Assembly: GCF_029892065.1 (NCBI RefSeq) | Contig: NZ_CP120375.1 | Span: 1-64,000, forward strand | Direction of reading: 5' to 3' | Origin: Sinorhizobium garamanticum | GTDB lineage: Bacteria; Pseudomonadota; Alphaproteobacteria; Rhizobiales; Rhizobiaceae | DNA: 64,000 nt | Shown: positions 16,397 to 41,221 of the stretch, in pieces | Layout of the letters: each line of letters starts with the position of its first letter | Numbering within the stretch: position 1 is the stretch's first letter | Notes under the pieces: generated by a model | The model's database searches: none | The model's input: only the letters and a program-made list of their open reading frames with translations | Told to the model about the DNA's origin: nothing | Made by a program: the position numbers and the translations under genes

Positions 16397-16450
16397 GACA
16401 GCTCCTCCGCTGTTGGTTGGATCGGAATAAGTCGGGTGCAAAGCATCGGA

Positions 16451-24233: not shown

Positions 24234-25817
24234 TCATAGCCAGGTGGTGTTTAGAAGGGGTGGAAGCCTTTTTTGCACCCAACCTGTCACCTGCTCGTAC
24301 GCATAGGCCATCTGCAACACGCCGCGGTCATCTTTGCCGATCAGCTGGATTCCTGCGGGGAGCCCAGCCTCGTTGAATCCGACCGGCATGCCCATGACAG
24401 GCAATCCCGTTAGAGACCACGGCGCCACCGTTTCCATCCAGCGATGGTATGTATCCATTTGGCGCCCGTTGATCTCGGATGGCCAATGGACGTTCTTGTC
24501 GAACGGAAACACTTGGGCACTTGGAGCCACGATGTAGTCATACCTATCGAACATCTTGACAACTGCAGCATACCAAGCTTTGCGCTCCTGGTCGGCGTTA
24601 TAAATATCTACCGCAGTAAGTTTCGATGCGCGCTCTAATTCCCAGGCGAGTTCCGGCTTCAACTTCGCCCGAGTTACCGGATCGGCCCAGAGGTCGTATC
24701 TGCGGAGCTGCGAAAGTCCTCGCCAAGTCATGAAGGTATCGAAGAGAGCGGACAAAGAGTAGTCGGGAACCGCCTCCTCGACGGTGGCTCCGAGACTCTC
24801 GAATGCGGCGAATGATTTGCGGCAGAGATCGAGGATACCCGGCTCGGTCGCCAGATACCCGTTGTAGTCTCCGACCCAGGCGATGCGGGCGCCTCGGAGA
24901 TCGCGTTCCAATGGCAACCGAAAGATTGAAGAATTCCCGTCGATCTCCAATGAAGCCGCTTTGCTTGGACCCGCCATGACTGACAGCAAAGCTGCTATGT
25001 CATTGACAGTTCGACCCATCGGCCCACCCACACCTAACTGAGCGATGAACCTGCTGTCATCTGGGATTAGACCCCAACTCGGCCGATACCCCAAAACGTT
25101 GTTGAAGGCTGCGGGGTTGCGAAGGGAGCCCATGTAGTCGCCGCCGTCTGCGACCGGCAGCATTCTCAATGCGAGGGCGGACGCTGCGCCGCCGCTGCTG
25201 CCGCCGCAGGTTTTTGACGGATCGTATGCGCAACCGGTGGTTCCCCACACCGGATTGTAGGTTTGCGAGCCCAACCCGAACTCCGGGGCATTCGTCTTGC
25301 CTATGACTAGGGCTCCCGCAGCCTTTATGCGCGCCACAACCGGCGAATCCGAATCAGCGATGCGGTCCGCAAAGATAGGCGAACCCGAGGTCGTCGGGAA
25401 TCCCTTCGTATCCGTGCCCTCCTTGATCGCCTGCGGAAAGCCATGCATCCAGCCGAGATATTCCCCACGATGCAGTTGCTCATCGCGTTCTTCAGCCTCT
25501 TTGAGCAACGCAGCATCATCCGCCAGAGCGATTATGGCGTTGACCTGCGGGTTTATCCGGTGAATGTGTTTAAGGTATGCTGTCATGACCTCTACGCATG
25601 ACACGTCCCTGCGCGCGATTGTTCGCGACAGCGCCAAGGCGTCCATCATGACGATCTCATCGGGTTCAGAAGTCGTCGTCAGATGAGCAGAAGCGGGAAG
25701 CTCCATCCTGCCCATGGTCAGCCCTGCTACCGTCGCTCCGGACTTCTTCGATATCGCTCGCCCCGAGATGCCGGATCTTTTCCCAGTGTCCGCTTTATCA
25801 TATGATTTGTCAGACAT
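24234..25817 (-). CDS. Amidase-signature hydrolase, copy 1
   Basis: The 527-residue protein belongs to the amidase signature family. The Ser-cisSer-Lys triad is visible: lysine in MHGFPQAIKEG, the glycine/serine loop KTCGGSSGGAASALALRM and the nucleophile region ADGGDYMGSLRNPAAF. It has an unusually long N-terminal arm (about 55 residues) before the first catalytic block; ATGs at codons 35 and 38 (GRMELPASAHL) are alternative starts. The family hydrolyses amides of many acids; GatA-type transamidation is unlikely without gatB/gatC. It is related to the amidase at 35339. Its position at the end of the peptide-transporter transcript suggests that it processes an imported amide. Confidence 0.85.
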   Translation of the reverse strand: MSDKSYDKADTGKRSGISGRAISKKSGATVAGLTMGRMELPASAHLTTTSEPDEIVMMDALALSRTIARRDVSCVEVMTAYLKHIHRINPQVNAIIALADDAALLKEAEERDEQLHRGEYLGWMHGFPQAIKEGTDTKGFPTTSGSPIFADRIADSDSPVVARIKAAGALVIGKTNAPEFGLGSQTYNPVWGTTGCAYDPSKTCGGSSGGAASALALRMLPVADGGDYMGSLRNPAAFNNVLGYRPSWGLIPDDSRFIAQLGVGGPMGRTVNDIAALLSVMAGPSKAASLEIDGNSSIFRLPLERDLRGARIAWVGDYNGYLATEPGILDLCRKSFAAFESLGATVEEAVPDYSLSALFDTFMTWRGLSQLRRYDLWADPVTRAKLKPELAWELERASKLTAVDIYNADQERKAWYAAVVKMFDRYDYIVAPSAQVFPFDKNVHWPSEINGRQMDTYHRWMETVAPWSLTGLPVMGMPVGFNEAGLPAGIQLIGKDDRGVLQMAYAYEQVTGWVQKRLPPLLNTTWL

Positions 25818-25826
25818 CTTCCATTC

Positions 25827-26351: not shown

Positions 26352-27428
26352 TCAGTGTTCGTGTCCGGGGTGCGCTCGAGATGTCCTATCGGCTGAAGAC
26401 GTCTGTGGCTCAGCCACATGAGCAAGCGAAGAACTGGCCGCTGCGGGAACGTAAGTGGCCGGAGCGCGTACATGACAGGCCACGACGCGCCCGTCTGCTA
26501 TCGGCACCAAAGGTGGAACTTCGATGCGGCAGCGCTCAACCGCCAACGGGCAGCGCGGGTGGAACGCGCATCCCCTTGGCGGGTTGACCGGGCTCGGCAC
26601 CTCGCCCTCGACCGGCGCCTCTAGCCGAACCCGCGTGGGATCCGGCACGGGTGCCGCCGCAATCAGCGCCTCGGTGTAGGGGTGGACCGGCTTGGCGAAC
26701 AGCGCCTCGCATGTAGCCAGTTCCACAATTCGCCCCAGATACATGACGGCAACGCGATGGGCGATATGTTCCACGACGCCAAGGTCGTGCGAGATGAAGA
26801 CCAAGGCGATGCCCATCTGCTGCTGAAGATCCACAAGCAGATTCAGAATCTGCGCCTGTACGGAGACGTCAAGGGCTGAGACCGCCTCGTCGGCAATGAT
26901 GAGTGAGGGCTTGAGCGACAGGGCGCGCGCAATGCCGAGCCGCTGGCGCTGACCACCCGACATCTCAGACGGGCGCCTGTGCATCATCTCGGGCGACATT
27001 CCAACCTTCTGGAGGAGGTCCGCGGCAAGCGCGTTGCGCTGCTTGCGGTTGAGACGCTCGAAATTCTCGGCGGGCTCAGTAATGATCTGTCCAGCGGTAA
27101 GGCGCGGGTTCAGCGATGAGTAAGGGTCCTGAAACACCATCTGCATCCGCCGACGCCAGGCACGAAGCTCGTGCTTCGTGAGGCCAGCAATATCGGCCCC
27201 GTCGATCAGGACGCGTCCGCCGGTCGGATCCACGAGCCGCATCAATAGCCGCGCGACAGTCGACTTGCCGCAGCCGGATTCCCCGACAATGCAAAGCGTT
27301 TCGCCCGCCTCAACGGAAAAGGATACATCCTCGACCGCTCTCACCACAGAAGACGGCTTCTTCAAGAACCCTGCACCAAGCGGATAATGCTTGGTCAGAT
27401 TTTCAACTTTAAGCAATGAACCGCTCAT
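26352..27428 (-). CDS. Oligopeptide-type ABC transporter ATPase (OppF/DppF-like)
   Basis: The ATG at 27428 ([17 protein letters not shown]) overlaps the stop of the upstream ATPase gene by ATGA and has AGGAG eight bases before it. The 358-residue protein has Walker [13 protein letters not shown]-loop [13 protein letters not shown], signature [14 protein letters not shown], Walker [13 protein letters not shown] and switch histidine FISHDLG. The C-terminal oligopeptide-type extension ([31 protein letters not shown]) identifies the peptide/opine/nickel subfamily. The Walker B glutamate is followed by AVSALD, where the D-loop is normal. It is one of two ATPases that drive uptake through the permeases at 28452-30276. 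Confidence 0.9.
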
Positions 27429-28450
27429 CCGCATATCTCCTCTGAGCGCCAGCATGCGGCGGCGTGACCCGATTCGACGTCGCGCAAAGCCGGCGTCTTC
27501 TCGCGGCAAATGTCGATCGCGAACGGGCAACGCGGCGCAAAGCTGCACCCGATAATCGGTTCACGCAGGTTAGGTACGATGCCGGGGATTTCAGGCAGAC
27601 GGCGCTGTCGCCCGTGCCGCCGGTCAGGCACCGAGCGCATCAGAGCCTGAGTGTACGGATGCATGGGGCGGGCGAACAAATCCGCGACGTTGGCTTGCTC
27701 GACGATCCGGCCAGCATACATGACGATAACACGCTGGCACGTCTCGGCGACGACGCCCAAATCATGGGTGATAAACATCACCGAGGTTCCCATGCGCTCT
27801 TTCAGGTCGACGATCAGCCGAAGGATCTGCGCCTGGATCGTAACGTCGAGGGCGGTGGTTGGCTCGTCAGCAATCAACAGTTCCGGTGAACAGGCAAGAG
27901 CCATGGCGATCATGACGCGTTGGCGCATGCCGCCGGACATCTCATGTGGATAGTTGTTGACGCGGCGCTCGGGGTCCGCAATGCGGACGATACGCAGCAT
28001 TTCTTCGGCCTTTGCCGTCGCGGCTGACCGCGAGGCTCCCGTGTGAATCTGCACCGCTTCAGCGATTTGGTGCCCAACCGTGTAGACCGGGTTTAGACTC
28101 GTCATCGGATCCTGGAAGATCATGGCGATCTTGTCACCGCGGATCTTTCGCATCTCCCGCTCCGACAACTCAAGAAGGTCGCGCCCGTGAAAGCGGACCT
28201 CACCTGCAACCGTCCTGGCGGTCTGCTTCGGAAGCAGACGAAGGATCGAGAGGGCAGTAACGCTCTTTCCGCATCCGGATTCGCCGACTACGCCAACCGT
28301 TTCGCCCTTCTTCACCTGGAAGCTGACGCCACCCAAGGCACGGGTGACGCTTTCCTCGCCGTAAAAGTGCGTCTCAAGGTCTCGAACATCGAGAAGTATT
28401 TCTTCTGCCGCGGTTTTAGGCATTTGCATGTCAGCTTTATGCATCAGCAT
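27425..28450 (-). CDS. Oligopeptide-type ABC transporter ATPase (OppD/DppD-like)
   Basis: The chosen ATG 28450 lies seven bases after GGAGG and overlaps the permease stop; ATG 28444 is two codons further. The protein (341 residues) has Walker [15 protein letters not shown]-loop [13 protein letters not shown], signature [15 protein letters not shown], Walker [15 protein letters not shown] and switch region [11 protein letters not shown]. The tail ([28 protein letters not shown]) has the conserved cysteine cluster of OppD-type ATPases, which in some members binds iron-sulphur. It pairs with the ATPase encoded downstream. Confidence 0.9.
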
Positions 28451-28451
28451 C

Positions 28452-29333
28452 TCAGCGCCTCCGCTTCGCGCGGGGATCGAACATATCGCGCAAACCATCC
28501 CCGAGCAGGTTGACCGAAAGAACCGTGACGGCAAGCAAGATGCCGGGGGCGAAAATCGTCATTGGAGCGATGGCAAGATACAAGCGCGAACTGGCGATCA
28601 TATTGCCCCAGCTCGGGATTTCGGGCGGCACGCCCACTCCGAGGAAGCTCAACCCCGCCTCCGTCAGGATCGCGCTGGCACAGACAGTGGCGCTCTGCAC
28701 CATCAGTGCCGGAATGGTGCTCGGGAGGATATGCCGCCAAAGCACCTTTGGCAGGCGCGCACCACCGCAGAGCGCAGCCTCCACATAGGGACGCTCCCGA
28801 ACACTGAGGACCACTGAACGAACCAGCCTCGCGACGGCTGGCGTCTCAGGGATCGCGATGGCGACGATGAGGATGCCAATGCCTGACCCTGTTAGAGAAA
28901 TGAGTGCAATGGCCAGCAGAATTGTCGGGATCGACATCAGGCCGTCCATGACCCGCATGACAATATTGTCGAACGTGCGGTTGTAGCCAGCCAGAATGCC
29001 GATCAGAAGCCCGGCAACGGCCGCGCAGGCCGCCGACAGCAAACCGACCATGACGGAGATCCGCGCGCCGAAAATCGTTCGGGCAAACACATCACGGCCC
29101 ATATTGTCGCTTCCAAACCACATCGCCGCGGACGGTGGCTGAAGGCGCTTGAACGGATCCATGTTTCCCGGATCCCCAGCGCAAAGTGGGGCAGCGAGTG
29201 CCAGAACGATCAGGAGTGTCAGCATCCCAGCGCCGATCACAACCAGTGGGTGCTGCCTTGCCAGACGGTAAATACCGGAGCCTCCCAGCGTGGCCGTCGG
29301 CGTGGTCTCAAGTGTTGCGGAGGGGAGTGTCAT
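28452..29333 (-). CDS. Oligopeptide-type ABC transporter permease (DppC/OppC-like)
   Basis: The 293-residue inner-membrane protein has an N-terminal cytoplasmic segment, a first helix ([21 protein letters not shown]), the OppC-family extracellular motif [23 protein letters not shown] and five more helices. The EAA loop that contacts the ATPases is [21 protein letters not shown]. The carboxyl end [20 protein letters not shown] is standard for the family. It starts two bases after the stop of the partner permease, and the ATPase genes follow by overlap, so translation is coupled. Confidence 0.9.
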
Positions 29334-29334
29334 A

Positions 29335-30276
29335 TCAGTACCGGATGCGCGGGTCGATCAGCGTGTAGGCGAGATCGACCGTGAGATTGATGAGGACGTA
29401 CAGACCTGACGTCAGGATGAGCACGCTCTGAATAATGGGATAGTCGCGGTTGTTGATCGCGTCGACCACGAGACGACCGATACCCGGTATATTGAACACC
29501 GTTTCCGTGAGAACCACTCCGCCGATCATATAGGCGAAGCTTATCCCGACGACGGTCAGGATCGGCACGCCCGCATTCTTCAAGGCGTGGTGGAAAAGCA
29601 TTGCATAAGACGACGCACCCTTGGCAGCGGCCGTTCGCATATAGTCTTCCGACAAAACCTCGAGCATGCTGGCTCGCGTGACCCGCGCGATGAATGCAAT
29701 GTAGCCAAGACTAAGAGCCACGGTGGGCAGGACCAAATGCACGAACCATGGCCCTAGGCCGCCACCGATCGGCACATATCCCTGGACCGGTAGCCAGTGT
29801 GTCCTGATGGCGAAGAAGTAGACGAGAAAATAGCCGATCACAAAGACTGGGACGGAATAACCAAGTGCCGAAAAGGCCGCGAGGAGGCGATCGATAAGCC
29901 CGCCAGTTCGCCACGCGGCAAGGATGCCGAAAGAGACCCCGACTGACACCGAAAGGATCATCGTCAGGATTGACAGGGAAAGGGTCGGTTCAAGCCGCTG
30001 CGATATCAGTTGGACAACCGGTCGCCCAGTGAAAATCGAGATGCCGAAATCGCCGCCGAGCATGTCCCGCACCCAACGCATGAACTGTACTGGCAGGGAA
30101 TCGTTCAACCCCAGTTGTTCGCGAATGCCGGCGATTACCTCAGCCGGCGCGTCGCGGCCGGCAATCATGGCCGCGGGATCGCTTGGTGCCAGTCTGAGAA
30201 GCAGGAACACGAAAATCCCAACCATCGCCATGACGGCGATGGTCGAGACCATCCTGCGCAGGATGTAGGCCGCCAT
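29335..30276 (-). CDS. Oligopeptide-type ABC transporter permease (DppB/OppB-like)
   Basis: The start at ATG 30276 overlaps the stop of the binding-protein gene as TGATG. The 313-residue protein opens MAAYILRRMVSTIAVMAMVG, then FLLLRLAPSDPAAMIAG, and has the EAA loop YMRTAAAKGASSYAMLFHHAL and the family ending LVDLAYTLIDPRIRY. Six transmembrane helices are apparent. It forms the channel with the DppC-like partner. A 5' remnant of a very similar gene lies at 36905-37139 behind the second binding protein. Confidence 0.9.
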   Translation of the reverse strand: MAAYILRRMVSTIAVMAMVGIFVFLLLRLAPSDPAAMIAGRDAPAEVIAGIREQLGLNDSLPVQFMRWVRDMLGGDFGISIFTGRPVVQLISQRLEPTLSLSILTMILSVSVGVSFGILAAWRTGGLIDRLLAAFSALGYSVPVFVIGYFLVYFFAIRTHWLPVQGYVPIGGGLGPWFVHLVLPTVALSLGYIAFIARVTRASMLEVLSEDYMRTAAAKGASSYAMLFHHALKNAGVPILTVVGISFAYMIGGVVLTETVFNIPGIGRLVVDAINNRDYPIIQSVLILTSGLYVLINLTVDLAYTLIDPRIRY

Positions 30277-31874
30277 CAGCCTGATACCTTTTGCATGTTC
30301 CACATGGGGAAACCGTATGAGCCGGGCACTTCAAGGAGGCCGGAAATCGACTTCCGGTGCGCCGTCGGCTGGACAGAGTGCCCCAACAGAACGCCGCCGA
30401 CGAAGTCCCACCATATCCCTTGCATTTCTCGGGCTAGTGCCTGGCGCTCCTCGAGTGTTTCAACCTCTGTCCATTTGGACCGGAGGGCCTCGTATTCATC
30501 GTTCTTTGGCCAGCCATAAAAAGCATCTTCGCCATTCGCGAGCAAGAAGGGAGTGTTGGTCGGATTGTATCCGCTGTAGTCAGAGATGAGGATGTTCCAG
30601 CCGCCGTCCTCAACCGGTCCCTTGCTTTTACGGCGTCTTTCCACCCCGCCCCAGTCACTCGGCGCAAGCTCAGCATTGACTCCAATGTTGCGCAGCATGT
30701 CTGCCAGAAGCTGCGAAGCATCGCTTACCTCCGCCCAATCTGTGGGTTGGAGGATGACGATTTTCTCGCCGGCATATCCGGCTTCCTGGAAAAGTTGCTT
30801 GGCCTTCTCAGGATCGCCACCCTTCTTGTACCATCCCGTATTCTCGTCATTGGAATAGAGGGGATTATTTCCAAATATCGAAGTCACGGTTTGGGAGAAT
30901 CTTGGGTCGGGATACGCGACGCGCATAAACGCCTCCTGATCGACCAAGTGAAGCATCGCCTGGCGCGCCTTGACGTTGTCGAATGGCGGCTGCAGAAAAT
31001 TCATGCGCAGGTACATTATAGTGCCTCCCTTACATAGAACCTGGAGTTCAAGGTTGGGATCACTTTCAATCACCGGGAAAAGATCGGCGGGTGGCGTCCA
31101 GACGAAATCGACCTCTCCCGCCTGGAGCGCCGCGAAGGCGGTCTGTTGATCGGAAATAACTTGCCAGACCGCTCGATCGACCTTGGCTACCTTTCCGCCG
31201 GCGAACCCGTCGGCCGCTTCCTGGCGGGGTACATATTGTTCATTTCGGTCGTAGGTGAAGCTTGCGCCAGGCTTGGCTAGAGCCTCATTGAACTTGAACG
31301 GCCCGGATCCGATATTCGAGGTCACCTGCTCGGTAGCGGGGCGGCTCGCGTCTTTCTCACGCATGACAGCGAGGAAAAGCCCCTCCACAAGCATATTAAT
31401 TAGCGTCCCCAGTGGCTCCTTGAGGGAGATCATGAAGGTCCTGTCATCTGCTTTCGAGATGTCTTTGGCCCTGGCCATGATCAATTTTCCACCAGTGTCC
31501 ACCTGGCCCCAGCGTCGTATCGAGGCCACACAGTCCGCTGCGGTCACCGGGCTGCCATCATGGAAGGTTAGGCCTTCGCGGAGTTGGAACGTGTAGGTCT
31601 TCTTGTCGTCGGAAACGCTCCACTTTTTCACCATTTGCGGCTGGGGGATTCCTTTGGAATCGATGGCAAATAGCGTGTCGTAGACCGCGTAGCCATGCAT
31701 GCGTGTGGTGTCGACCCCCGATAGAATTGGATCGAAGACCGTGAGGTCAGCCATCACCATCCGCACTGTCCGGGCGTCATCTGGTGATGTCTGCGCCCGA
31801 AGGATTGTCGGCATTGATAACGCCGTTCCGGCGGCCAAACCTGTCTTGAGAATTTGGCGTCTAGTGATTGTCAT
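30276..31874 (-). CDS. Peptide-type ABC transporter substrate-binding protein, copy 1
   Basis: The 532-residue family 5 binding protein begins MTITRRQILKTGLAAGTALS with a twin-arginine-like signal ending near LRAQTS, so it is exported to the periplasm. Family blocks include WSVSDDKKTYTFQLREGLTFHDG, VTAADCVASIRRWGQVD, GSGPFKFNEALAKPGASFTYDRN and QPPFDNVKARQAMLHLVDQ. It is about 75-80% identical by eye to copy 2 at 37136, which points to duplication with divergence in ligand-facing segments (for example the region after NNPLYSNDENTG). It is the first gene of the transporter operon and sets its specificity. Confidence 0.9.
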   Translation of the reverse strand: MTITRRQILKTGLAAGTALSMPTILRAQTSPDDARTVRMVMADLTVFDPILSGVDTTRMHGYAVYDTLFAIDSKGIPQPQMVKKWSVSDDKKTYTFQLREGLTFHDGSPVTAADCVASIRRWGQVDTGGKLIMARAKDISKADDRTFMISLKEPLGTLINMLVEGLFLAVMREKDASRPATEQVTSNIGSGPFKFNEALAKPGASFTYDRNEQYVPRQEAADGFAGGKVAKVDRAVWQVISDQQTAFAALQAGEVDFVWTPPADLFPVIESDPNLELQVLCKGGTIMYLRMNFLQPPFDNVKARQAMLHLVDQEAFMRVAYPDPRFSQTVTSIFGNNPLYSNDENTGWYKKGGDPEKAKQLFQEAGYAGEKIVILQPTDWAEVSDASQLLADMLRNIGVNAELAPSDWGGVERRRKSKGPVEDGGWNILISDYSGYNPTNTPFLLANGEDAFYGWPKNDEYEALRSKWTEVETLEERQALAREMQGIWWDFVGGVLLGHSVQPTAHRKSISGLLEVPGSYGFPMWNMQKVSG

Positions 31875-31930: not shown

Positions 31931-33436
31931 CTAGGAAGTGCCGATAGAATGCTGACGGGCGGTGATTTCGGGATTGGCAATGTCGTGTTCTGGCCAGAAG
32001 CGCGCTTTTTGGTAGTCGAACTGATTTCTTCTGTAGTAGCCAACGCCGGGAGTGTTCACGAGCACTGGTGTAGCTAGCCCATCGAAGTTCGCAACAAAGT
32101 GGAAACCTGACTTCACGATTATGAAATCAAGATCTTCGATAACCACGTTCTGGCTTGTAAAAGCAGCTGGATCGGTAGTGTCGGCCGGCTTTGTGGTCAG
32201 TAGCACCTGGATGCGGTCATCCACCCTCAGAACGGCGGTTGGTCCCATGGCACTAGGGTCGCCCCTGCCAACAATACCCGCCACAACAAAATTTCCATCG
32301 CTCACGTGTTCAACTCGCCCGGTGATCAATCGAGGCGTGAACCCCGGCGTGAACCCCGCTCCGACAGACAATTTAACGGTAGCACCTACACCAGCCTCTA
32401 TAGCTTGAGCCGCTGCGACGGGATCGGTAATAGGTACTGCACCGCTCAGTTCTGGATAACCATCGAGCGCTGCGGAAAGCAAAATCGTGCCGTCTCCCGG
32501 CGCGCCCGCAGCGACCCGGTCGCCCATATCGCCGATCGCAAATGGCCGTTTATCCGGCGAACTCCGCACACGCTCAAAGACCTCCTCAACCGTCAGAAGG
32601 TCGTCCTTGAAACGCTCGCGTTCAACCCAGAAGCGGGTCGCAAGATCCACCGCGATGGAAGGCGTGTCGGCACCTGAGCCATCGCTCAGAATGGTGACAA
32701 CCTGGCCGATTTCGTCATCATCGGTAAAGCGGAACACGTTATAGATCGAGATATCCTTGATCGATGGTTGCTGGGCCGCGTATTCGCGTGCTTTTGCATG
32801 GATTTCGGCCAGCGGCCCGGAGCCGGTTTCAGCCGCACCGGGCAGGATCATGGGTACCCGCGCCGATACCGTGACTGGCTTTAGCCGTCCCTCAAGCTGC
32901 TCGAGCAGCAGTTCTGCGACTTTCTGCCCACATTCGACGAAGTCCGAATGAGGGTTTTCCTTACAGGCGATACAAATATCGGTGTTATCGAGCATGCGAG
33001 GCGTGATATGGCCATGAAGGTCTAGGCCGATGCCGATCGGCACGTTGGGGCCGACGACGTGGCGAAGCGCTTGAAGAAGGTCGCCCTCAGCATCCGGCGT
33101 TTCCGTCGTGCCCATCGCGCCATGAAGGTCCAGGCCGATTGCATCAGGCTTGATGCGTCGAACCGCAACCAAAAGTTCCTCACGCATACGCACGTAGAAA
33201 TCATGATCGACAAGGCCGCCGGCGCCTCCATTTGCCGAGAAAACTGGCTCGATATTTGCGCCGGCGGCGGCGAGCGTGTCAGTCAGTCCCTTCAGCACGC
33301 CAGCTGGCGTTCGCAGAATATCGTGGCCACGTTCCACCACGAAGAGTTCCTCGTCGGTGGGCCTTGGGTTCAGCCTGTGGGATTCGTGGCAGAAACGGGC
33401 AACAAGAATGCGATAAGGTTTTGATAATTCTGGCAC
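31931..33436 (-). CDS. M81-family metallopeptidase (MlrC-like)
   Basis: The 501-residue protein starts with YRILVARFCHESHRLNPRPTD and contains DAIGLDLHGAMGTTETPDAEG, GLDLHGHITPRML and a C-terminal ADTTDPAAFTSQNVVIEDLDF with VVKSGFHFVANFDG, all typical of the DUF1485/MlrC family. The histidine and aspartate residues in CHES, DLHGAM and DLHGH fit the zinc site. MlrC itself cleaves linearised microcystin peptides; other members act on unknown peptide or amide substrates. Here it is between the binding protein and an aminotransferase on the same strand, so it probably hydrolyses the imported compound in the cytoplasm (no signal peptide seen). Confidence 0.85.
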   Translation of the reverse strand: MPELSKPYRILVARFCHESHRLNPRPTDEELFVVERGHDILRTPAGVLKGLTDTLAAAGANIEPVFSANGGAGGLVDHDFYVRMREELLVAVRRIKPDAIGLDLHGAMGTTETPDAEGDLLQALRHVVGPNVPIGIGLDLHGHITPRMLDNTDICIACKENPHSDFVECGQKVAELLLEQLEGRLKPVTVSARVPMILPGAAETGSGPLAEIHAKAREYAAQQPSIKDISIYNVFRFTDDDEIGQVVTILSDGSGADTPSIAVDLATRFWVERERFKDDLLTVEEVFERVRSSPDKRPFAIGDMGDRVAAGAPGDGTILLSAALDGYPELSGAVPITDPVAAAQAIEAGVGATVKLSVGAGFTPGFTPRLITGRVEHVSDGNFVVAGIVGRGDPSAMGPTAVLRVDDRIQVLLTTKPADTTDPAAFTSQNVVIEDLDFIIVKSGFHFVANFDGLATPVLVNTPGVGYYRRNQFDYQKARFWPEHDIANPEITARQHSIGTS

Positions 33437-33519
33437 TCGATTACTCCGGGTTTTATGGGATCGTATGCAAGCAGGTAGCCGGAATGTGGCAATCCTGGAG
33501 TGAACCTCCTATTGGGCCG

Positions 33520-34842
33520 TCAACCAAAGGCACCGGTCAGCTCGCCATATCGGTCCAGGAAGACGCCAAAAGCATTCTCCAGCGCCAAGTACTCGTCTTC
33601 GGTATTGGCCATTGACAGGGTGAGCTGGCCGCGCCTGGTGATGAAGATGCCGTTGTTGATCATAAAAAGCTGGAACAGCTTTCGAAAGATCGGCGGGGTC
33701 TGAACATCCTCAGGGCCCCGCGGCATGTCCGCTTGGAAATGCGTCGAGATGAGGGAGCCAAAACTGCCTAATTGCAGGGGCACTCGTCGGCTGTTCGCTT
33801 GACGTAGTAAAGCGGAGCGCAGTTCGTTGGAGCGGGTATTCAGCCGATCGACGTTTTCCTCAAGGAGGACCTCTTTTAGCGCAGCATATCCCGCGATCAT
33901 GGTCAGAACGTTGTTGCTAAAAGTGCCGCCATGCGAGAGCGCTCTCACATGAGTGGGGCCAAGTCTGTCCATATGCCTAGCAGCCCCACCCAAAGCCCCG
34001 AAGTTGAGCCCCCCGCCGAAGAACTTGCCGAGTATGGTCAGGTTCGGAGAGATATCGACTATCGATTGGTAACCACCGACGGCAAACCTGGCGGTTTGCA
34101 CCTCGTCAAATATCAGCAACGCACCGATCTCATCGCATATTGAGCGAAGTCGGCGCAGGAAAGCCGTGTCGGCCACGAAGCCGCCAGCGCTGCCCATGAT
34201 CGGCTCGACCAGAATGGCCGCGATGTCTTCGCCCTCTTCCCGGACGATCTGCTCGACGGTTTCGATGTGATTGTATCGCGCGAGGCGGACATCCGCGCGA
34301 TCCACGTTCATCTCACTTTCGGGCTCCAGCCAGTTTAAGACGTTACCGTGATAGCCGCCGAAGAAGCCCAGTACCAAGCACCGTCCTGTTTCGGCCTTGG
34401 CAAGTTGTATCGCGGCAACATTTGCTTCCGTGCCAGACGTCAGGAATCGGACTCTTTCGATAGACTGAAAGCGACGGCAGATCTCGCGGGCAAACGCCAC
34501 CTCGTGATCGTGTGTGCCCCCGTAACTCACTCCGTTGTCCAGCCCCGCTTGGAGCGCTGCCACGATCGCTTCATTCGAATGGCCGAAGAGGGCGGCGGTT
34601 AGGTCATTTCCGAAATCTGAATATTCGTGGCCGTCTGCATCTGTCACCTTGCTGGATCGCGCAGAGCTGAAGAAAAGCGGGAACGGATCGAAATACAGCG
34701 AGCCCCGAGTGTTGCCGCCAGGCAGGACCTCTTTGGCTGCTTCAAACTTCCGTCTGCTCGTCGGATTCGAGCTTTCATAGATCCGCTGCTCATGCGCAAC
34801 GGCGTCGTCCAACTTAGACCGAGTTTCTGCGGACTGCAGCAT
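33520..34842 (-). CDS. Glutamate-1-semialdehyde-aminotransferase-like PLP aminotransferase, copy B
   Basis: The protein is the same as that encoded at 1292-2614 except at its end (GELTGAFG here, GELTDAFR there). The PLP-binding SGTEAN loop, FDEVQ aspartate and ILGKFFGGG lysine are intact. In this position it is flanked on the same strand by the M81 peptidase gene downstream and the second amidase upstream, so this is probably the original location and copy A the derived one (inference). The 5' leader with its GGAGGGAG ribosome-binding site is inside the duplicated segment, so both copies carry the same translation signal but different upstream DNA. Confidence 0.85.
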   Translation of the reverse strand: MLQSAETRSKLDDAVAHEQRIYESSNPTSRRKFEAAKEVLPGGNTRGSLYFDPFPLFFSSARSSKVTDADGHEYSDFGNDLTAALFGHSNEAIVAALQAGLDNGVSYGGTHDHEVAFAREICRRFQSIERVRFLTSGTEANVAAIQLAKAETGRCLVLGFFGGYHGNVLNWLEPESEMNVDRADVRLARYNHIETVEQIVREEGEDIAAILVEPIMGSAGGFVADTAFLRRLRSICDEIGALLIFDEVQTARFAVGGYQSIVDISPNLTILGKFFGGGLNFGALGGAARHMDRLGPTHVRALSHGGTFSNNVLTMIAGYAALKEVLLEENVDRLNTRSNELRSALLRQANSRRVPLQLGSFGSLISTHFQADMPRGPEDVQTPPIFRKLFQLFMINNGIFITRRGQLTLSMANTEDEYLALENAFGVFLDRYGELTGAFG

Positions 34843-34888
34843 CGTAGACGGCTCCCTCCTACCTCTGTTTCAAACCCGCGTGCGAATA
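33527..34888 (-). repeat. Inverted duplication, copy B (1.36 kb)
   Basis: This is the inverse partner of 1246-2607; the breakpoint on this side is at TGCGAATA (34881-34888), beyond which the two flanks differ completely. Recombination between the copies would invert the 31 kb between them. Confidence 0.9.
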
Positions 34889-35338
34889 ATCATGCTTTGA
34901 GCCTATCGATGGCATGTGGAACGACTTGTTGAAATTCGGAATCGTTATTCACGGCGGTGATTGATTATGGGATTGGTAGCGTAGATCGGTGCGGATGCCG
35001 ACGTGAAGTCGGCAGTCCCCATCAAAGCCGACCGGTTTCCGGCATTGAAATTCTTCCGGTTAGCAACATGGGCGTCCATGTCTCAAGATAAACTGGAGAC
35101 ATTGGTCCCCGAAGAGAAGGCGAGTCGCCATTGGCCTTTGGCGTAGCAATATCCAGAGACGCAGTGCGCGTCGTGACACGCTTTAGCCTGACGGTCTATC
35201 CCGATACGTATATGACAGCCACGGCGCGCTGCGGCCGCGGACGCCCGCCCGAGGCCTGGTGGTGAAGCAACGGATCGTTCCTATCGAGACAGGCGCCTGT
35301 GCGGACGATACATGGCTTCGGAGCCCTTCGCGCATTCG
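34889..35338. other. Spacer without a recognisable gene
   Basis: This stretch separates the aminotransferase copy B from the second amidase. No frame resembles a known protein. It may hold the promoter of the M81-aminotransferase part. Confidence 0.4.
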
Positions 35339-36862
35339 TCAGTTCTGGCGCAACGCGGGCGGAGGGACTCGCTCAACCCAGCGCGTTTGCTTTTCGAAGG
35401 CGTGCGCCAGCTGTAGGACTGCCCGGTCACCGCGATGCCGGCCGATGATCTGCACGCCCGTCGGGAGCCCGCGGCCGTCGAAACCGACCGGCATCGCGGC
35501 GACTGGGTGCCCGGTCATCGACCAGGGTGCGACGGTCTCCATCCAGCGGTGGTAGGTGTCCATCTCGCGGCCGGCGATCGATGACGGCCAGTGGATGAGC
35601 TTATCGAATGGGAACACTTGCGTGCTCGGAGCGAGCACGTAGTCGTACTGATAGAACATCGCGGTCACCGCCTGGTACCAGGCGACCCGTGCCTCGGCAG
35701 CCTCGGTGACATCTCGGGCGGAGAGTTTCAGGCCGTGCTCGATCTCCCAGATCAGTTCGGGCTTCATCAGCTTGCGCTTTTCCGGGTCGTCTAAGAGCGA
35801 CGCGTACTTAGTCATGCTCCACCACCGCCATACCAGGAACAGCTGCCAGATCTCGGCGGGGTCATATTGCGGCAGTGCCCGCTTTACGGTGCAGCCCAAC
35901 CGCTCGAATGCGCCGAACGAGGACTCGATCAGGTCGAGTATGCCCGGCTCGGTGGCGAGATAGCCGTCCCAGTCGTCGACGTAGGCGATCCGGGTGCCCC
36001 GAAAGTCGCGGTCAAGTGTCTGGGTGAAGACTTCCGGGTCTTCGTCGATCGCCAGGGGGGCGCTCGGGTCGGGCCCGGCCATCGTCGCGAGCAGCATCGC
36101 CACGTCTGCCACACAGCGCCCCATCGGGCCGCTCACACTGCCCCGAGCGACAAAGCCGGGGCTCGGTATCCGGCCCCATGAGGGTCGGAACCCGACCACG
36201 TTGCAGAACGCCGCTGGGTTGCGCAGCGAGCCCATGTGGTCGCCGCCATCGGCCACCGGAACCATGCGCAACGCCAGAGCCGAGGCGGCACCACCACTGC
36301 TGCCGCCTGCAGTCCGGTTGGTGTCGTAGGGTGTCGCGGTCGCGCCGTATAAGAGGTTATAAGTCTGCGACCCGAGCCCGAACTCCGGCATGTTGGTCTT
36401 GCCGATGACGATCGCCCCAGCGTCTTTGATCCGCTTGACTAACAGATCGTCGGTAGTGGCGATCTGGTTCTTGTAGATCGGTGAGCCCCAAGTCTCCCTT
36501 AGGCCCTTTGCGGAGGCCTTCGCCGCATGCGGGAAGCCATGCATCCAGCCGAGGTACTCCCCGCGCTGCAATTGCTGGTCACGTTGAGCCGCCTCGGCCA
36601 ACAGCTCAGATCGTCCCCGTAGCTCGACAATCGCGTTGACGCTATGGTTGTGTTCCTCGATGTGATCCAGGAATGTCTCCATTACCTCGACGCACGAGAC
36701 CTCCCGTCTCTTGACGACCCCCGACAGACGCCGCGCGTCATACAACACGAGCTCGCGAAGGTACGCAGGCCGTGAATCTCCGCCCCGCCGGTACTGGAGG
36801 AGTGCTACGGGGTCGTCCGACACGCCCGCCTGCATGCTTGAGGGGTTCGTGAAGCTGGTCAT
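35339..36862 (-). CDS. Amidase-signature hydrolase, copy 2
   Basis: The 507-residue protein is an amidase-signature enzyme related to the one at 24234. Triad elements are MHGFPHAAKAS (lysine), TAGGSSGGAASALALRM and ADGGDHMGSLRNPAAF (nucleophile region). ATG 36862 gives a short N-terminal arm; ATG 36835 (MQAGVSDDP) is an alternative. Shared blocks such as RYDYIVAP/YQYDYVLAP, VFPFDK and METVAPWS show common ancestry with copy 1, but overall divergence is much larger than between the aminotransferase copies, so the duplication is older. It has a noticeably higher GC content than copy 1, which suggests separate origin or long separation. Confidence 0.85.
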   Translation of the reverse strand: MTSFTNPSSMQAGVSDDPVALLQYRRGGDSRPAYLRELVLYDARRLSGVVKRREVSCVEVMETFLDHIEEHNHSVNAIVELRGRSELLAEAAQRDQQLQRGEYLGWMHGFPHAAKASAKGLRETWGSPIYKNQIATTDDLLVKRIKDAGAIVIGKTNMPEFGLGSQTYNLLYGATATPYDTNRTAGGSSGGAASALALRMVPVADGGDHMGSLRNPAAFCNVVGFRPSWGRIPSPGFVARGSVSGPMGRCVADVAMLLATMAGPDPSAPLAIDEDPEVFTQTLDRDFRGTRIAYVDDWDGYLATEPGILDLIESSFGAFERLGCTVKRALPQYDPAEIWQLFLVWRWWSMTKYASLLDDPEKRKLMKPELIWEIEHGLKLSARDVTEAAEARVAWYQAVTAMFYQYDYVLAPSTQVFPFDKLIHWPSSIAGREMDTYHRWMETVAPWSMTGHPVAAMPVGFDGRGLPTGVQIIGRHRGDRAVLQLAHAFEKQTRWVERVPPPALRQN

Positions 36863-36904
36863 ACTGTGCCTCTTTCTGAAGTCTTGAATCGATCACATGT
36901 GTAA

Positions 36905-37139
36905 GATCGAGGTCCTGAAAATCGCCACCAAGCATGTCGCCGAGGCGACCTATAAACTGAACCGGCAAAGGATCATCCAATCTTAATTGCTCGCGGATGC
37001 AGGCGACCATCCGATCTGGCAGCGATCATGACCGCCTGGTCGCCGGGCGCGAGCCCCACGAACAAGAACACGAAAATGCCAACCATCGCCATAACGGCGA
37101 TGATCGAGACATCCTGCGAAGGATGTGGGCAGCCATTAG
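36905..37139 (-). pseudogene. DppB-like permease, 5' remnant
   Basis: Directly behind the second binding protein the minus strand reads AAHILRRM, a frameshift, IIAVMAMVGIFVFLFVGLAPGD, then VACIREQLRLDDPLPVQFIG and GDMLGGDF. These are the first ~90 residues of the permease at 29335 (compare AAYILRRMVSTIAVMAMVG and AGIREQLGLNDSLPVQFM). The rest of the permease and all later transporter genes are missing. It shows that a second complete transporter operon once existed here and was cut down by deletion. Confidence 0.8.
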
Positions 37140-38734
37140 GCGGAAGCTTTCTGCATGTCCCACATCGCAAAAGCGCTGCCTATGGGGATCTCGATGAGGC
37201 CGGTAAGCGCCTTGCGGTGGGCAGTTGGCCGGATAGCGCGCCCCAGCAGGACGCCGCCGACGAAGTCCCACCATACTTTTTGCATTTCTCGGGCGAGTGC
37301 CTGGCGCTCCTCGAGTGTTTCGACCTCTATCCATTTGGCCCGGAGCGCCTCGTAGTCGTCGTCCTTCGGCCAGCCCCACCACGCTTGTTCCCCATTTGCG
37401 AGCAAGAAGGGATTGCTGATCGGGCTGGCTCCAGAGTAATCAGAGATGAAGATGTTCCAGCCGCCATCCTCGATTGAGCCCTTGTTCGCCCGACGCTTGG
37501 TAAGCTCACTATAGGACATCGGCGCAAGTTCGGCGTTGCACCCGATCTTGCGCAGCATGTCCGCCAGAAGCTGCGATGCATTGCTGGCCTCGGGCCAGTC
37601 CGTGGGTTGGAGGATGACGATTTTCTCGCCGGCATATCCGCCTTCCTGGAAGAGCTGTTTGGCTCTTTCAGGGTCGCCGCCCTTCTTGTACCATCCCGTA
37701 TTCTCGTCATTGGAATAGAGGGGACTGTTGCCAAAGATCGAAAGCTCGGTTTCGGTGTATCTCGGGTCGGGGTACATGACGCGCAAGAAGGTCTCCTGGT
37801 CGATCAGGTGAAGCATCGCCCGGCGCGCTTTGACATTGTTGAACGGCGGCTGCAGAAAATTCATGCGCACGAACATTGTACTACCCCGCTTGTTTAGAAC
37901 CTGGAGTTCCAGATTGGGATCGCTTTCGATCAGCGGATAAAGATCGGCTGGCGGTTCTTCAACGAAATCGACCTCTCCCGCTTGGAGCGCCGCAACGGCA
38001 GTCTGTGGATCGGCGATATTCTGCCAGACGACGCGATCAACCTTGACGACCTTTCCGCCGGCGAATCCGTCAGACGGCTCATTGCATGGTACATACTTTT
38101 CATTGCGGTCGTAGGTGAAGCTTGCGCCCGGCTTGGCTAGAGCGTCATTGAACTTGAATGGCCCGGATCCGACATTCTCGGTCACCTGCTCGGTAGCGGG
38201 ACGATCTGCATCTTTCTCCCGCATGATCGGTAGGTAATTCCCCTCCACCAGCATATTAATTAGATTCCCCAATGGCTCCTTAAGATTGATTGCGAAGGTC
38301 TTCTCGTCCTTTTTCGAGATATCCTTGGCCCTGGCCATGATCAGTTTTCCACCGGCGTCCACCTGGCCCCAACGTCGTATCGAGGCCACACAGTCCGCCG
38401 CAGTGACGGCCCCCCCGTCGTGGAAGTTGAGGCCATCGCGGAGCTCGAAAGTATAGGTCTTCTTGTCCTCGGAAACGCCCCACTTTTCCACCATTTGCGG
38501 ACGCAGAATCCGTTTGGAATCGAGTTCGAAAAGAGTGTCGTAAATCGCTAAAGCATGCGTGCGTGTGACGGTAGTCCTCGATAAAATAGGATCGAAGACC
38601 GTGAGGTCCGGCGTCACCATCCGGACCGTCCGCGTGTCCGCCTGTGATGTCTGCGCCCGAAGGATTGTCGGTATTGATAACGCCGTTCCGGCGGCCAAAC
38701 CTGTCTTGAGAATCTCGCGTCTAGTGATTGTCAT
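37136..38734 (-). CDS. Peptide-type ABC transporter substrate-binding protein, copy 2
   Basis: The 532-residue protein parallels copy 1 over its whole length: MTITRREILKTGLAAGTALS twin-arginine-like signal, WGVSEDKKTYTFELRDGLNFHDG, SIRRWGQVDAGGKLIMARAKD and NNVKARRAMLHLIDQETFLRV. Differences cluster in the pocket-forming regions (MSYSELTKRRANKGSIEDGG against SDWGGVERRRKSKGPVEDGG), so ligand choice may differ. It has no permeases of its own left; it could deliver ligand to the transporter at 26352-30276 (inference). The penicillin-acylase gene lies 132 bp upstream on the same strand. Confidence 0.9.
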   Translation of the reverse strand: MTITRREILKTGLAAGTALSIPTILRAQTSQADTRTVRMVTPDLTVFDPILSRTTVTRTHALAIYDTLFELDSKRILRPQMVEKWGVSEDKKTYTFELRDGLNFHDGGAVTAADCVASIRRWGQVDAGGKLIMARAKDISKKDEKTFAINLKEPLGNLINMLVEGNYLPIMREKDADRPATEQVTENVGSGPFKFNDALAKPGASFTYDRNEKYVPCNEPSDGFAGGKVVKVDRVVWQNIADPQTAVAALQAGEVDFVEEPPADLYPLIESDPNLELQVLNKRGSTMFVRMNFLQPPFNNVKARRAMLHLIDQETFLRVMYPDPRYTETELSIFGNSPLYSNDENTGWYKKGGDPERAKQLFQEGGYAGEKIVILQPTDWPEASNASQLLADMLRKIGCNAELAPMSYSELTKRRANKGSIEDGGWNIFISDYSGASPISNPFLLANGEQAWWGWPKDDDYEALRAKWIEVETLEERQALAREMQKVWWDFVGGVLLGRAIRPTAHRKALTGLIEIPIGSAFAMWDMQKASA

Positions 38735-38866
38735 GCTCCGTTCCTCTCTTGTTCATTCTTAAAAGTTAGTTCCCAGTCGCTCCTGTAAGAGCGCCGGCAG
38801 AATGCTGCCGGGCGGTGATTTCGGGAGGGGAATATCCCGTTCACGCGCCGTCGCTCGGTCCGCGGC

Positions 38867-41221
38867 TCAATCCGGCAGGAGGGCGATGCGGCGGACAGTC
38901 TCCGCCTCAACGCGCTTTTTGCTGTAGACGAGCGGCACGTATTCTCCTTTAGACCACATTTCGGCGAGATCGCCGTAATGGACCGAGCGCGGGTCGCCGG
39001 ACTGGCCGGGCGCGTTGATGCAGATGCTGTTGTCCCAGTCGCCGACATCCATGACGAGTCGGACGGACGCCCCTACGTTGACGCCGAAATCGCTCATCCG
39101 GTAGCCGGCGAGCATGGGCGTCGATCGGCTGCCGCCGAGTGGGAGCGGACCGACATTCCACTCCGTGACATTCTCCGGCCTGATGCGGCTGGTGGCATGC
39201 TCGAAAAGCGCCCGGTGCAGATTGCCCCATTGCCAGGCGAACGGATCCGCGCCGAGCCGCGCGCCACAATCGGCAAAACCAGCTGAAAGCGTCGAAAGCA
39301 GCATGTCGTCGCGTTCGGCCTCGTCCCATCGGAGCCCGGGCTCGGCCAGAAGGGAGAGCATCCGGTCGACATCGCCCGGTAGCAGCAACTGCCGCACCGT
39401 CGGATTCGGGGCGAACCTTGCGAGAAGCGCCGGGCGGAGGTGCTTCATCCACCAGACTTCGAATAGCGCCGCCGGGGCACTCGTGGCGTCAAGCCGGTGG
39501 TGCCAATTCCTGAGCAGATCCAGTGCCTTTTGCTGGACATCGTCCAAAGGTTGCCGGCCCGCAACTTTTTCAAGCACGCCGCAGATGGCGACAGCCGGCC
39601 GGGAGTATACGTCCGTCTGCAACGCCATTGACGTTTTTAGCGTGTGTTTGGGATCGCTGGTGAGGACAGACCTGATGCGCCGGGCGCGGCTCCCTTCCGT
39701 CCATTCATGGCCAATCGACGGGGCTTTCGGATCGCTGTCTGCTGGTAGGTTCATCTCGTTTGCGGAAGCCACGAAACCTTCGGCCGGATTGTATTTGCGC
39801 GGAAGCTGATCGGCCGGCAGGAAACCGTCCCATTCATGGCTGCCGTGGCCGGGCACGGGCAAGAGGCCTTCCCAGTTGCGGCGGACAGGCGTGAAACCGG
39901 CCGTGAACCAGCCGATATTGCCCTCCAGATCGGCGCTGACATGGTTGACCGGAGGCGTGCCCCAATGGGAAAGCGTTTCGGAAAACCCCATTACCGAGTT
40001 GCTGCGCATGTAGGACAGACTGCCGAGATAGGCGGCCGCGCCCGGCGACAGCCAGACGGAGCGTATCGCGATCACCAGCCGCTTCTCTGAATTCTCGTAG
40101 AGGATCGGACCGTGTCGGGTGAAGGAGAGCGTCAGCGTCTGGTCGGCAAAGCCCTTGACCGGAAAGGCCTCTTCGATGCGGGCAATCTTCTCCCACAGAT
40201 CGCCATAGCGGTAGGAATCCGGATCGCCGCCCTTCGTCTCGTAGACGTATATGTCCTCCTGGTCTGCCCCGAAGATCGTGAGACCGAAGGCGATCTTCTC
40301 ATTGTGGCCGAGGGAGACGCCCGGCGCGGTCGGCTCGCCCGCGCCTATTACATTCAGGCCCGGAGCTTCCAAGTGCACGAGGTAACGTAGCGATGGCACG
40401 GCATGCCTCCGGTGGGGATCGCTCGCCAGGATCGGCCGGCCGCTTTCGGTTCGGGAGCCATGGACGGCCCAGTTGTTGGAGCCCTCCTCCATCTTTGCCT
40501 GGACGACGTCGCCGAGATCGGTCACCTCGGTCCACTTCCAGATATCGTCCAAGGTTGCGGCAAGGCGAGCCTTGTCGAAGGTGACCGGCGCGGTCGCGAG
40601 CTTGTAGAGGCGCGTTGCGGCAAGCGGAATGTCGGCCAGCGAAATGCCTGCGGCCGCCTTCGGTTGGACCGGCGGGTTGATCTCGCAGCGCAGCAGGTCC
40701 GTCTCTGCATCAGCCAGCGCCATGATGTTGGCGCGCAGGATCTCCGACAGCCCGTTACCGATCAGCGCGTGCGTGCGGATGCGGACAACATCGGAAGGCT
40801 GCCACCGGGCCGGCCTGGTGCCGAAGACGGCGAACTCCGGCGGCAGGCGACCGGGCTCCGCTTCGCAGAGCACGACATAGGCATTGATGCCGGCGGTGAA
40901 TGCAGTGCAAATCGCTTCAGTATCCGGCGCGTAGGCTGTCCATTCCGGACCCAGGTCGCCGCGGTAGAGGAATTGCCGGGCGGCATGGTCTTGGGCCAGG
41001 TAGCCGGGGCCGAAATCTCCGGCGAGGAGGCCGAGGCCACGCTTGCGCCACAGATCGAGCTGCCAGAGCCGGTCACGGGCGGCGTTGAACCCCTGCACCA
41101 AGAACAGGTCCTGTTCGCTTGCCGCCCTGATATGCGCAATGCCCCAGTGGTCGATGCGGATCTCGGCCTCGGCCTCGAGGCCGGCCAGCCGGATGGTTTC
41201 GTTCGCAGGCGTATCGGTCAT
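38867..41221 (-). CDS. Penicillin acylase-family Ntn hydrolase
   Basis: The protein has 784 residues from ATG 41221 (MTDTPANETIRLAGLEAEAE). The alpha part opens IRIDHWGIAHIRAASEQDLF and NAARDRLWQLDLWRKRGLG. The nucleophile is Ser248 in MEEGSNNWAVHGSRT, where autocleavage between Gly and Ser would give the beta chain; NNW and the later HVSADLEGNIGWFTAG are standard. No signal peptide is apparent, which is unusual because most relatives are periplasmic, so it may act in the cytoplasm on imported compounds. The family deacylates N-acyl amino acids, beta-lactams or homoserine lactones. In this locus an N-acyl amide is the likely substrate, and quorum-signal hydrolysis is an alternative. Confidence 0.85.
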   Translation of the reverse strand: MTDTPANETIRLAGLEAEAEIRIDHWGIAHIRAASEQDLFLVQGFNAARDRLWQLDLWRKRGLGLLAGDFGPGYLAQDHAARQFLYRGDLGPEWTAYAPDTEAICTAFTAGINAYVVLCEAEPGRLPPEFAVFGTRPARWQPSDVVRIRTHALIGNGLSEILRANIMALADAETDLLRCEINPPVQPKAAAGISLADIPLAATRLYKLATAPVTFDKARLAATLDDIWKWTEVTDLGDVVQAKMEEGSNNWAVHGSRTESGRPILASDPHRRHAVPSLRYLVHLEAPGLNVIGAGEPTAPGVSLGHNEKIAFGLTIFGADQEDIYVYETKGGDPDSYRYGDLWEKIARIEEAFPVKGFADQTLTLSFTRHGPILYENSEKRLVIAIRSVWLSPGAAAYLGSLSYMRSNSVMGFSETLSHWGTPPVNHVSADLEGNIGWFTAGFTPVRRNWEGLLPVPGHGSHEWDGFLPADQLPRKYNPAEGFVASANEMNLPADSDPKAPSIGHEWTEGSRARRIRSVLTSDPKHTLKTSMALQTDVYSRPAVAICGVLEKVAGRQPLDDVQQKALDLLRNWHHRLDATSAPAALFEVWWMKHLRPALLARFAPNPTVRQLLLPGDVDRMLSLLAEPGLRWDEAERDDMLLSTLSAGFADCGARLGADPFAWQWGNLHRALFEHATSRIRPENVTEWNVGPLPLGGSRSTPMLAGYRMSDFGVNVGASVRLVMDVGDWDNSICINAPGQSGDPRSVHYGDLAEMWSKGEYVPLVYSKKRVEAETVRRIALLPD

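Follow-up and report, generated by a model that had tools for sequence, protein, structure and literature searches.

We analysed the first 64,000 bases (the window) of contig C3 (NZ_CP120375.1; 623,165 bp) of Sinorhizobium garamanticum, whose genome comprises 6.83 Mb in three contigs, and focused on a 17 kb locus (24,234 to 41,221) in which an oligopeptide-type (Opp) importer lies among amide hydrolases and a class III aminotransferase. Our best explanation, which we hold with middling confidence, is that the locus belongs to a module for the catabolism of beta-amino-acid amides or peptides on a nodulation plasmid. Two binding proteins would feed one Opp-type importer; an M81 peptidase, two amidases and a cytoplasmic-looking N-terminal nucleophile (Ntn) acylase would cleave amide bonds; a beta-transaminase would pass the 3-amino group on to 2-oxoglutarate and so leave a beta-keto acid; a beta-keto acid cleavage enzyme (BKACE) would convert this acid and acetyl-CoA to an acyl-CoA and acetoacetate; and a CoA-transferase and a thiolase would return acetoacetate to acetyl-CoA. 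The transaminase and the BKACE fit together because the product of beta-amino acid transamination belongs to the substrate class of BKACEs. The locus itself is a mosaic and is not conserved as one cassette. To judge from its genes, C3 is a nodulation plasmid of this Sinorhizobium-like genome, as it carries nodA (at 478,802) and the plasmid records nearest to the window come from S. mexicanum and S. chiapasense, the S. mexicanum stretch also carrying nif genes.

The aminotransferase gives the most specific indication of substrate. The pyridoxal phosphate aminotransferase of the initial annotation is present, and can be narrowed to the MesAT/VpAT beta-transaminase family. Among solved structures it is most closely related to the Mesorhizobium beta-transaminase MesAT (2yku/6iz9; E 1e-90, 41% identity) and then to the Variovorax beta-phenylalanine aminotransferase VpAT (4ao9; E 2e-82, 38%), which rank ahead of glutamate-1-semialdehyde aminomutases and omega-aminotransferases. 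We compared motifs in an alignment of 136 rows, made up of 133 sequences (including both window copies and a few places fetched twice) together with MesAT, VpAT and one omega-type outgroup. Two arginines of VpAT, R41 and R398, the latter being the C-terminal arginine, are kept in the window enzyme as R46 and R404. Column 41 holds arginine in 135 of the 136 rows and column 398 in 134, the omega-type outgroup being among the latter, so that column 398 does not discriminate. In VpAT, R41 binds the substrate carboxylate and is supported by E75, while V43 and Y76 contact the aromatic ring (PMC9850050). The window enzyme has S, D and L at positions 43, 75 and 76 and thus lacks the aromatic motif; V-E-Y or V-E-F is found in 96 of the 136 rows, and S-D-L is partly matched at one other place (A-D-L, locus L209). 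We read the window enzyme as a beta-amino acid transaminase with an altered side-chain pocket. As the ring-side positions differ, although the arginines are kept, its substrate probably has a side chain other than the phenyl ring accepted by MesAT and VpAT; the V43/E75/Y76 motif does not in itself exclude aliphatic substrates (PMC9850050). Family and arginines are thus common to all three enzymes, which differ in overall identity and in the side-chain positions, and the published text available on MesAT and VpAT mentions no transporter, hydrolases or BKACE alongside them. In a tree, the window enzyme groups (support 0.935) with those of Microvirga VF16 and of L209 (genome G121), both of which lie beside a BKACE.

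The two BKACEs and the CoA-transferase reported in the initial annotation were found, the CoA-transferase being of the two-subunit type. Both BKACEs are full length and match PF05853 above cut-off. BKACE 1, the two CoA-transferase subunits, the thiolase and a UPF0262 protein form one row (14.7-19.0 kb), which starts about 5 kb beyond amidase 1. The aminotransferase profile matches 43 of the 394 genomes of our family sample (E<=1e-80), a sample taken as Rhizobiaceae from the placing of the source genome. The linkage test used the 32 places scoring above 500 bits, in 31 genomes with the source genome left out, and omitted 16 listed rows that scored 277-352 bits, including one in the source genome; the other class III aminotransferases of the same 31 genomes (best 150 of 358 by Pfam score) served as controls. 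A BKACE lies within 10 kb of half of the beta-transaminases (16 of 32) and of 18 of these best 150 controls (Fisher test, p = 6e-6), the mean BKACE density being 0.014 per 21 kb. In the DNA fetched around the 32 places (<=20 kb each, several shorter), a BKACE was present at 14 loci and CoA-transferase A and B at 4. From 31 plasmid records we fetched 17 loci, of which 7 have a BKACE, 5 have CoA-transferase A and B and 10 have either; 5 have an amidase, 3 an M81 gene (one a fragment) and 3 both Opp permeases. Among the 17, L030, L032 and L131 are near-copies of one another, as are L129, L134 and L135, and several of the loci supplied the hidden Markov models (HMMs) used. Bastard et al. reportedly described the diversity of BKACEs in 2014. 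The open-licence literature yielded no paper tying 3-keto-5-aminohexanoate cleavage to nodules or symbiosis, an absence that is weak evidence. Elsewhere on C3, at 84-93 kb (L139), there is a second run of CoA-transferase A/B, thiolase and partial BKACE, together with another full-length BKACE. On a Phaeobacter P66 plasmid (L136), a beta-transaminase has an AMP-binding protein and a thiolase as neighbours; together with the 4-hydroxybenzoate genes, protocatechuate genes and BKACE also present there, this gene set suggests breakdown of beta-tyrosine.

The hydrolases would act ahead of this chemistry. The M81 protein has its DUF1485 and MlrC_C domains and falls below the NCBIfam cut-off for MlrC (115.6 bits against 999), and so is not the microcystinase MlrC proper; it belongs to the same family with weak similarity (E 3.8e-31 to 7ylq) and is nearer to 3iuu, a 'putative metallopeptidase'. 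MlrC releases the beta-amino acid Adda from microcystin. In the acylase, PF01804 covers positions 1-675 of 675 and the G-SNNW motif is intact (GSNNW at 273), with the Ntn serine following the glycine; D-succinylase (7eby, E 3e-218) is its closest solved relative, and acylase activity is predicted. No signal peptide is visible by eye, in keeping with the cytoplasmic appearance first noted for it. The GGSSGG motif is intact in both amidases.

All eleven genes named in the initial annotation (the importer, two binding proteins, two amidases, M81, aminotransferase and acylase) are open full-length frames on the minus strand, in the order claimed (Table 1). From the aminotransferase through OppF they overlap or are separated by at most 83 bp, while the acylase, binding protein 2, amidase 2 and amidase 1 are set apart by gaps of 132, 273, 496 and 534 bp. 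Given this spacing, at most the run from the aminotransferase through M81 and binding protein 1 to OppBCDF resembles a single operon. Both binding proteins begin, by eye, with a twin-arginine-like leader.

Table 1. Genes of the 17 kb locus and related features of contig C3 (window positions unless marked C3 or L152)
Feature	Position	Strand	Remarks
Penicillin-acylase-family Ntn-hydrolase	38867..41299	-	First in transcription order; closest solved relative D-succinylase
SBP5 binding protein 2	37136..38734	-	76% amino acid (aa) identical to SBP5 1
Amidase-signature amidase 2	35339..36862	-	PRK07486 subfamily; 58% aa identical to amidase 1
Class III aminotransferase, beta-transaminase (MesAT/VpAT) family, copy 2	33520..34842	-	ATG start, 440 aa
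M81 / MlrC-like metallopeptidase	31931..33436	-	Pfam DUF1485 + MlrC_C; 3iuu and 7ylq (MlrC) by sequence
SBP5 binding protein 1	30276..31874	-	Twin-arginine-like leader
OppB-type permease	29335..30303	-	
OppC-type permease	28452..29333	-	
OppD-type ATPase	27425..28534	-	True start probably within frame; annotated homologue shorter
OppF-type ATPase	26352..27548	-	True start probably within frame; annotated homologue shorter
Amidase-signature amidase 1	24234..25817	-	PRK07486 subfamily; last in transcription order
GntR/FCD regulator	22563..23318	-	80% DNA identical to 2751-3635 over 649 bp
BKACE 1	18044..18985	-	First gene of acetoacetate run
CoA-transferase subunit A	17099..17797	-	
CoA-transferase subunit B	16451..17080	-	
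Acetyl-CoA acetyltransferase (thiolase)	15215..16441	-	
UPF0262 family protein	14702..15199	-	Adjoins thiolase also in CB3060 and S. chiapasense
BKACE 2	57834..58775	-	46% aa identical to BKACE 1
Beta-transaminase copy 1	1292..2614	+	Followed by GntR/FCD 2751-3635
Class III omega-type aminotransferase	43449..44825	-	93% identical to S. mexicanum plasmid gene; pair with MmgE/PrpD
MmgE/PrpD protein	44895..46325	-	90% identical to S. mexicanum gene on plasmid with nif genes
Ligase, 3' half	55840..56487	+	100% identical over 648 bp to intact contig-end copy
Ligase, intact	C3:620128-621375 (L152:10128-11375)		ATP-grasp, LAL_C2; far below biotin-carboxylase cut-offs

The make-up of the locus points to recent assembly. 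The aminotransferase is present twice, at 1243-2616 and, inverted, at 33518-34891, with 99.56% identity over 1374 bp; the duplicated segment holds little beyond the gene, and the two proteins differ by 2 residues. The two binding proteins are likewise duplicates (79% DNA identity over 1.95 kb), and the amidases are paralogues. From these duplications the block appears to have been put together recently, and one transaminase copy sits just upstream of an M81-Opp unit that looks older: OppBCDF, a binding protein and M81 are kept in S. mexicanum and S. chiapasense at 83-92% aa identity (about 70% for the binding protein). The stretches fetched from these two species lack the beta-transaminase, the amidases and the acylase, so that transporter and M81 are what they have in common with the block. 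In NGR234 and Mesorhizobium AR02, other genes accompany the transporter. The acylase shares 80% identity with one in Neorhizobium galegae that adjoins a different Opp-type importer, and it occurs in 7 of 60 relatives, the source genome included; at E<=1e-100 the aminotransferase was found in one of the 60, the source genome itself. Conservation of the block in unrelated replicons, which had been envisaged as support for a pathway, was not found, as coverage of 24-45 kb falls short of 80% in every plasmid record (41% and 43% in the two best rows) and partners differ elsewhere. The idea of a single eleven-gene pathway thus fails in part: uptake, amide hydrolysis, transamination, BKACE and CoA transfer are chemically coherent, and no conserved 17 kb block was found.

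The fullest parallel, a compact version of the same logic, is a plasmid locus of Rhizobium sp. CB3060, where about 17 kb hold GntR, OppFDCBA, M81, BKACE, a thioesterase and a transaminase, together with CoA-transferase A/B, thiolase, UPF0262 and glutamate dehydrogenase; the parts of the scheme occupy about 15 kb there. Its transporter is close to that of the window (63-88% aa identity), while M81 (31%) and the transaminase (39%) are distant. Glutamate dehydrogenase fragments lie in the window at 6367-7216 and 14054-14647; the intact CB3060 relative follows the thiolase-UPF0262 pair. We also considered plasmid pBPHY02 of Paraburkholderia phymatum as an orthologous block, its layout being alike (a binding protein, two permeases, two ATPases, M81 and a class III aminotransferase), and rejected it. 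It is analogous only, because its aminotransferase is omega-type (37% identical to the window gene at 43449-44825 and 26% to the beta-transaminase) and its M81 is only 31% identical.

Several observations weigh against a beta-amino-acid catabolic module. Other class III aminotransferases also lie beside BKACEs, as the controls show, and the rows of the linkage test share ancestry. With local HMMs, no M81 gene was found near any of the 32 beta-transaminases of the family sample or of 80 GTDB-wide loci (a set that includes the Microvirga place a second time), and both Opp permeases were found near one of the 32 and two of the 80. A BKACE lies near 6 of the 80 GTDB-wide loci and CoA-transferase A and B near 11, many of these loci being cut by contig ends; set against 16 of 32, this makes the transaminase-BKACE linkage strong within the family sample and patchy beyond it. 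The nearest homologue found for the window aminotransferase has 46-47% identity, and neither nod-box nor sigma54 sites occur above chance in the 64-kb window. In Paraburkholderia cultures, moreover, the beta-keto acid from beta-phenylalanine decarboxylates spontaneously to acetophenone (PMC6150868), so that a BKACE is not required everywhere. Where it is absent, CoA-transferase and thiolase could handle the beta-keto acid directly. What becomes of the beta-keto acid once beta-phenylalanine has been transaminated was described as uncertain (PMC6150868), and the transaminase-BKACE linkage offers a testable answer.

At its other end, C3 carries genes that may bear on where such compounds come from. 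A nonribosomal peptide synthetase/polyketide synthase (NRPS/PKS; C-A-PCP-KS-AT-PCP-TE, with no match for a ketoreductase (KR) domain) is followed by an ATP-grasp ligase with LAL_C2, the C-terminal domain of L-amino-acid ligases, and a second M81. The corresponding run on the S. mexicanum plasmid shows 84%, 77% and 93% identity to these three, and a BKACE lies directly upstream of it. On a circular C3, the contig-end M81 would be followed after about 1.4 kb by transaminase copy 1 and its GntR gene; an attempt to join the contig ends by S. mexicanum synteny failed. Solved relatives resolved no specificity for the NRPS adenylation (A) domain, and sigma54 and NifA sites in the contig-end NRPS stretch (L152) do not exceed chance. 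Ligase relatives (E<=1e-80) occur on 97 plasmid records, all from Rhizobium, Sinorhizobium or Mesorhizobium. At E<=1e-100 the ligase is found in 11 of the 394 family genomes (source included), all of them among the 21 that are nodA-positive, and in none of the 373 others, 10 of the 21 lacking it (Fisher test, p = 5e-16, or 9e-15 without the source genome); nodA-positive here means a strong NodA match, two matches at E 3e-5 and 8e-5 having been set aside, and the counts assume the same 394 genomes behind each search. In most annotated records listed, the ligase is labelled 'acetyl-CoA carboxylase biotin carboxylase subunit family protein', and because of such a name it may have been overlooked so far. 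The transaminase shows no such nodA bias (3 of 32 transaminase genomes, source included; p = 0.24). Close orthologues of the binding protein (at least 67% identity; a fourth match at 45% was dropped) occur in 3 of the 394 genomes, source included, all three with nodA, ligase and transaminase, although the G279 orthologue has an inner stop. Among the 21 nodA-positive genomes, these are exactly the three with the transaminase (p = 7.5e-4, or 0.005 without the source genome), the two genes lying on different contigs in two fragmented assemblies. Within the window, 49255-49398 and 52627-53374 are NRPS/PKS-related remnants (92% and 79% DNA identity to the contig end), which, with the ligase remnant, stand beside BKACE 2.

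Other explanations can be given for the same genes. The lack of a conserved block, the different partners of its parts elsewhere, the recent duplications (transaminase, binding protein and ligase fragment) and the transposases and group II intron nearby would all be expected of a coincidental mosaic, in which independent amide- and peptide-scavenging genes without a common substrate have accumulated in an insertion sequence (IS)-rich, duplicating region of the symbiotic plasmid. We regard this as unlikely, since the transaminase-BKACE linkage exceeds controls, the aminotransferase, M81, binding protein and Opp genes are tightly spaced, and CB3060 unites the same functions with a close transporter, albeit with distant M81 and transaminase. 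It is improbable that the transaminase works in the biosynthetic direction, aminating an unreduced beta-keto product of the NRPS/PKS as part of a biosynthetic cluster, while the importer block stands separate. The missing KR match, the ligase and M81 that follow, the proximity that transaminase copy 1 would have if C3 is circular and the repetition of the NRPS-ligase-M81 order in S. mexicanum speak for it, but the S. mexicanum stretches (L025, L215) show no beta-transaminase, no synteny spans the contig ends, and the BKACE linkage indicates breakdown.

Only a very slim chance is given to a scheme in which the BKACE acts first and the transaminase then acts on a 3-aminoacyl-CoA, as in a variant of lysine fermentation. 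There the acyl-CoA beta-transaminase Kat, a HemL-like class III aminotransferase encoded at a lysine-fermentation locus or beside a thiolase, works alongside Kce, AtoAD and glutamate dehydrogenase in one pathway; it acts on thioesters only and shares 24% identity with MesAT (PMC3149608). The CB3060 locus, with BKACE, aminotransferase, CoA-transferase, thiolase and glutamate dehydrogenase, would suit this scheme. Cleavage of a beta-keto acid with acetyl-CoA, the CoA-transferase and the thiolase are common to the window and to the BKACE/Kce pathways, including the Kat variant; the difference is that in the window the beta-keto acid would come from transamination of a free beta-amino acid. The Kat paper was the only one found in the open-licence literature that combines 3-keto-5-aminohexanoate cleavage, an aminotransferase and a beta-amino acid. 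It is very improbable as well that the locus detoxifies or quenches an amide antibiotic or signal, whether foreign or from the host: relatives of the acylase and M81 are named as hydrolases of N-acyl amino acids, beta-lactams, acyl-homoserine lactones and microcystin, but the acylase has no visible signal peptide and enzymes for carbon recovery are present.

Returning to beta-amino-acid catabolism, its place on a nodulation plasmid recalls the rhizopines. In the rhizopine mos/moc system, genes for synthesis and catabolism lie together on the symbiotic plasmid, and the known rhizopines are inosamines; further hallmarks are NifA-dependent synthesis in nodules and use of the product by producer strains only. 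On C3, the NRPS/PKS and ligase, as candidate synthesis genes, lie on the same nodA contig as the putative catabolic block; the product implied would be of the peptide type instead of an inosamine. A rhizopine-like make-and-eat system is a serious but unproven idea. One might speculate, doubtful as this is, that nodulation plasmids carry a second rhizopine-like currency, small peptides of unusual amino acids that would be made, exported from nodules, re-imported and burned. Such peptides might, on this doubtful footing, be built by a symbiosis-specific L-amino-acid-ligase family from products of NRPS/PKS or of lysine-2,3-aminomutase-like enzymes. The 17 kb locus could then be this strain's catabolic half (Opp with M81, amidases and acylase, beta-transaminase, and BKACE, CoA-transferase and thiolase), an assignment of equally doubtful standing. 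The speculation is prompted by the confinement of the ligase to nodA-positive genomes of the sample, by the shared plasmid and by the NifA dependence of analogues; that confinement gives the rhizopine idea a new and directly testable gene set.

Expression of such analogues has been published. On pBPHY02 of P. phymatum, genes for a D-Ala-D-Ala-ligase-like protein, a MATE exporter, an NRPS-like AMP-binding protein and a short-chain dehydrogenase/reductase (SDR) precede those for an importer, M81 and a class III aminotransferase. For bean nodules of a nifA mutant, a published table gives log2 fold changes of -8.45 for the ligase-like gene, -8.21 for MATE, -5.92 for the AMP-binding gene and -7.21 for the SDR, and of -2.5 to -4.1 for the importer, M81 and aminotransferase (PMC8305402). 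The effect may be indirect, because the mutant nodules do not fix nitrogen, and the P. phymatum proteins are only distantly related to those of the window. In pea bacteroids, proteins annotated as lysine 2,3-aminomutase and as D-Ala-D-Ala ligase rank in the top 50 by abundance (PMC7950203, Table 2) and were not detected in vegetative cells according to the same source, their family match to the present loci being by name only. No relevant paper was found in the open-licence literature on rhizopines and beta-amino acids. Lysine-2,3-aminomutase-like and ligase-like genes occur together near the transaminase at 3 of the 17 plasmid loci. As a local source of beta-amino acids, lysine 2,3-aminomutase was rejected, the plasmid-type query (L133) matching once on C1 and not on C3. 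At three fetched ligase loci (R. tropici, S. fredii and Mesorhizobium), the HMMs detected no Opp permease, M81, BKACE or beta-transaminase within 10 kb, and such varied ligase neighbours count against a fixed make-and-eat cassette. In R. tropici CIAT 899, two ligase genes flank a 'hypothetical protein' (L217:3188-4327) that matches the lysine-2,3-aminomutase HMM at 118 bits.

Among the remaining features, a group II intron maturase and three IS110-type transposases lie around the locus (9342-10625, 7740-8765, 49811-50662 and 54017-55162). The window also has an MFS_3 exporter-like gene (12282-14198), and several rhizobial plasmids have relatives of it close to UPF0262, BKACE or transaminase genes.

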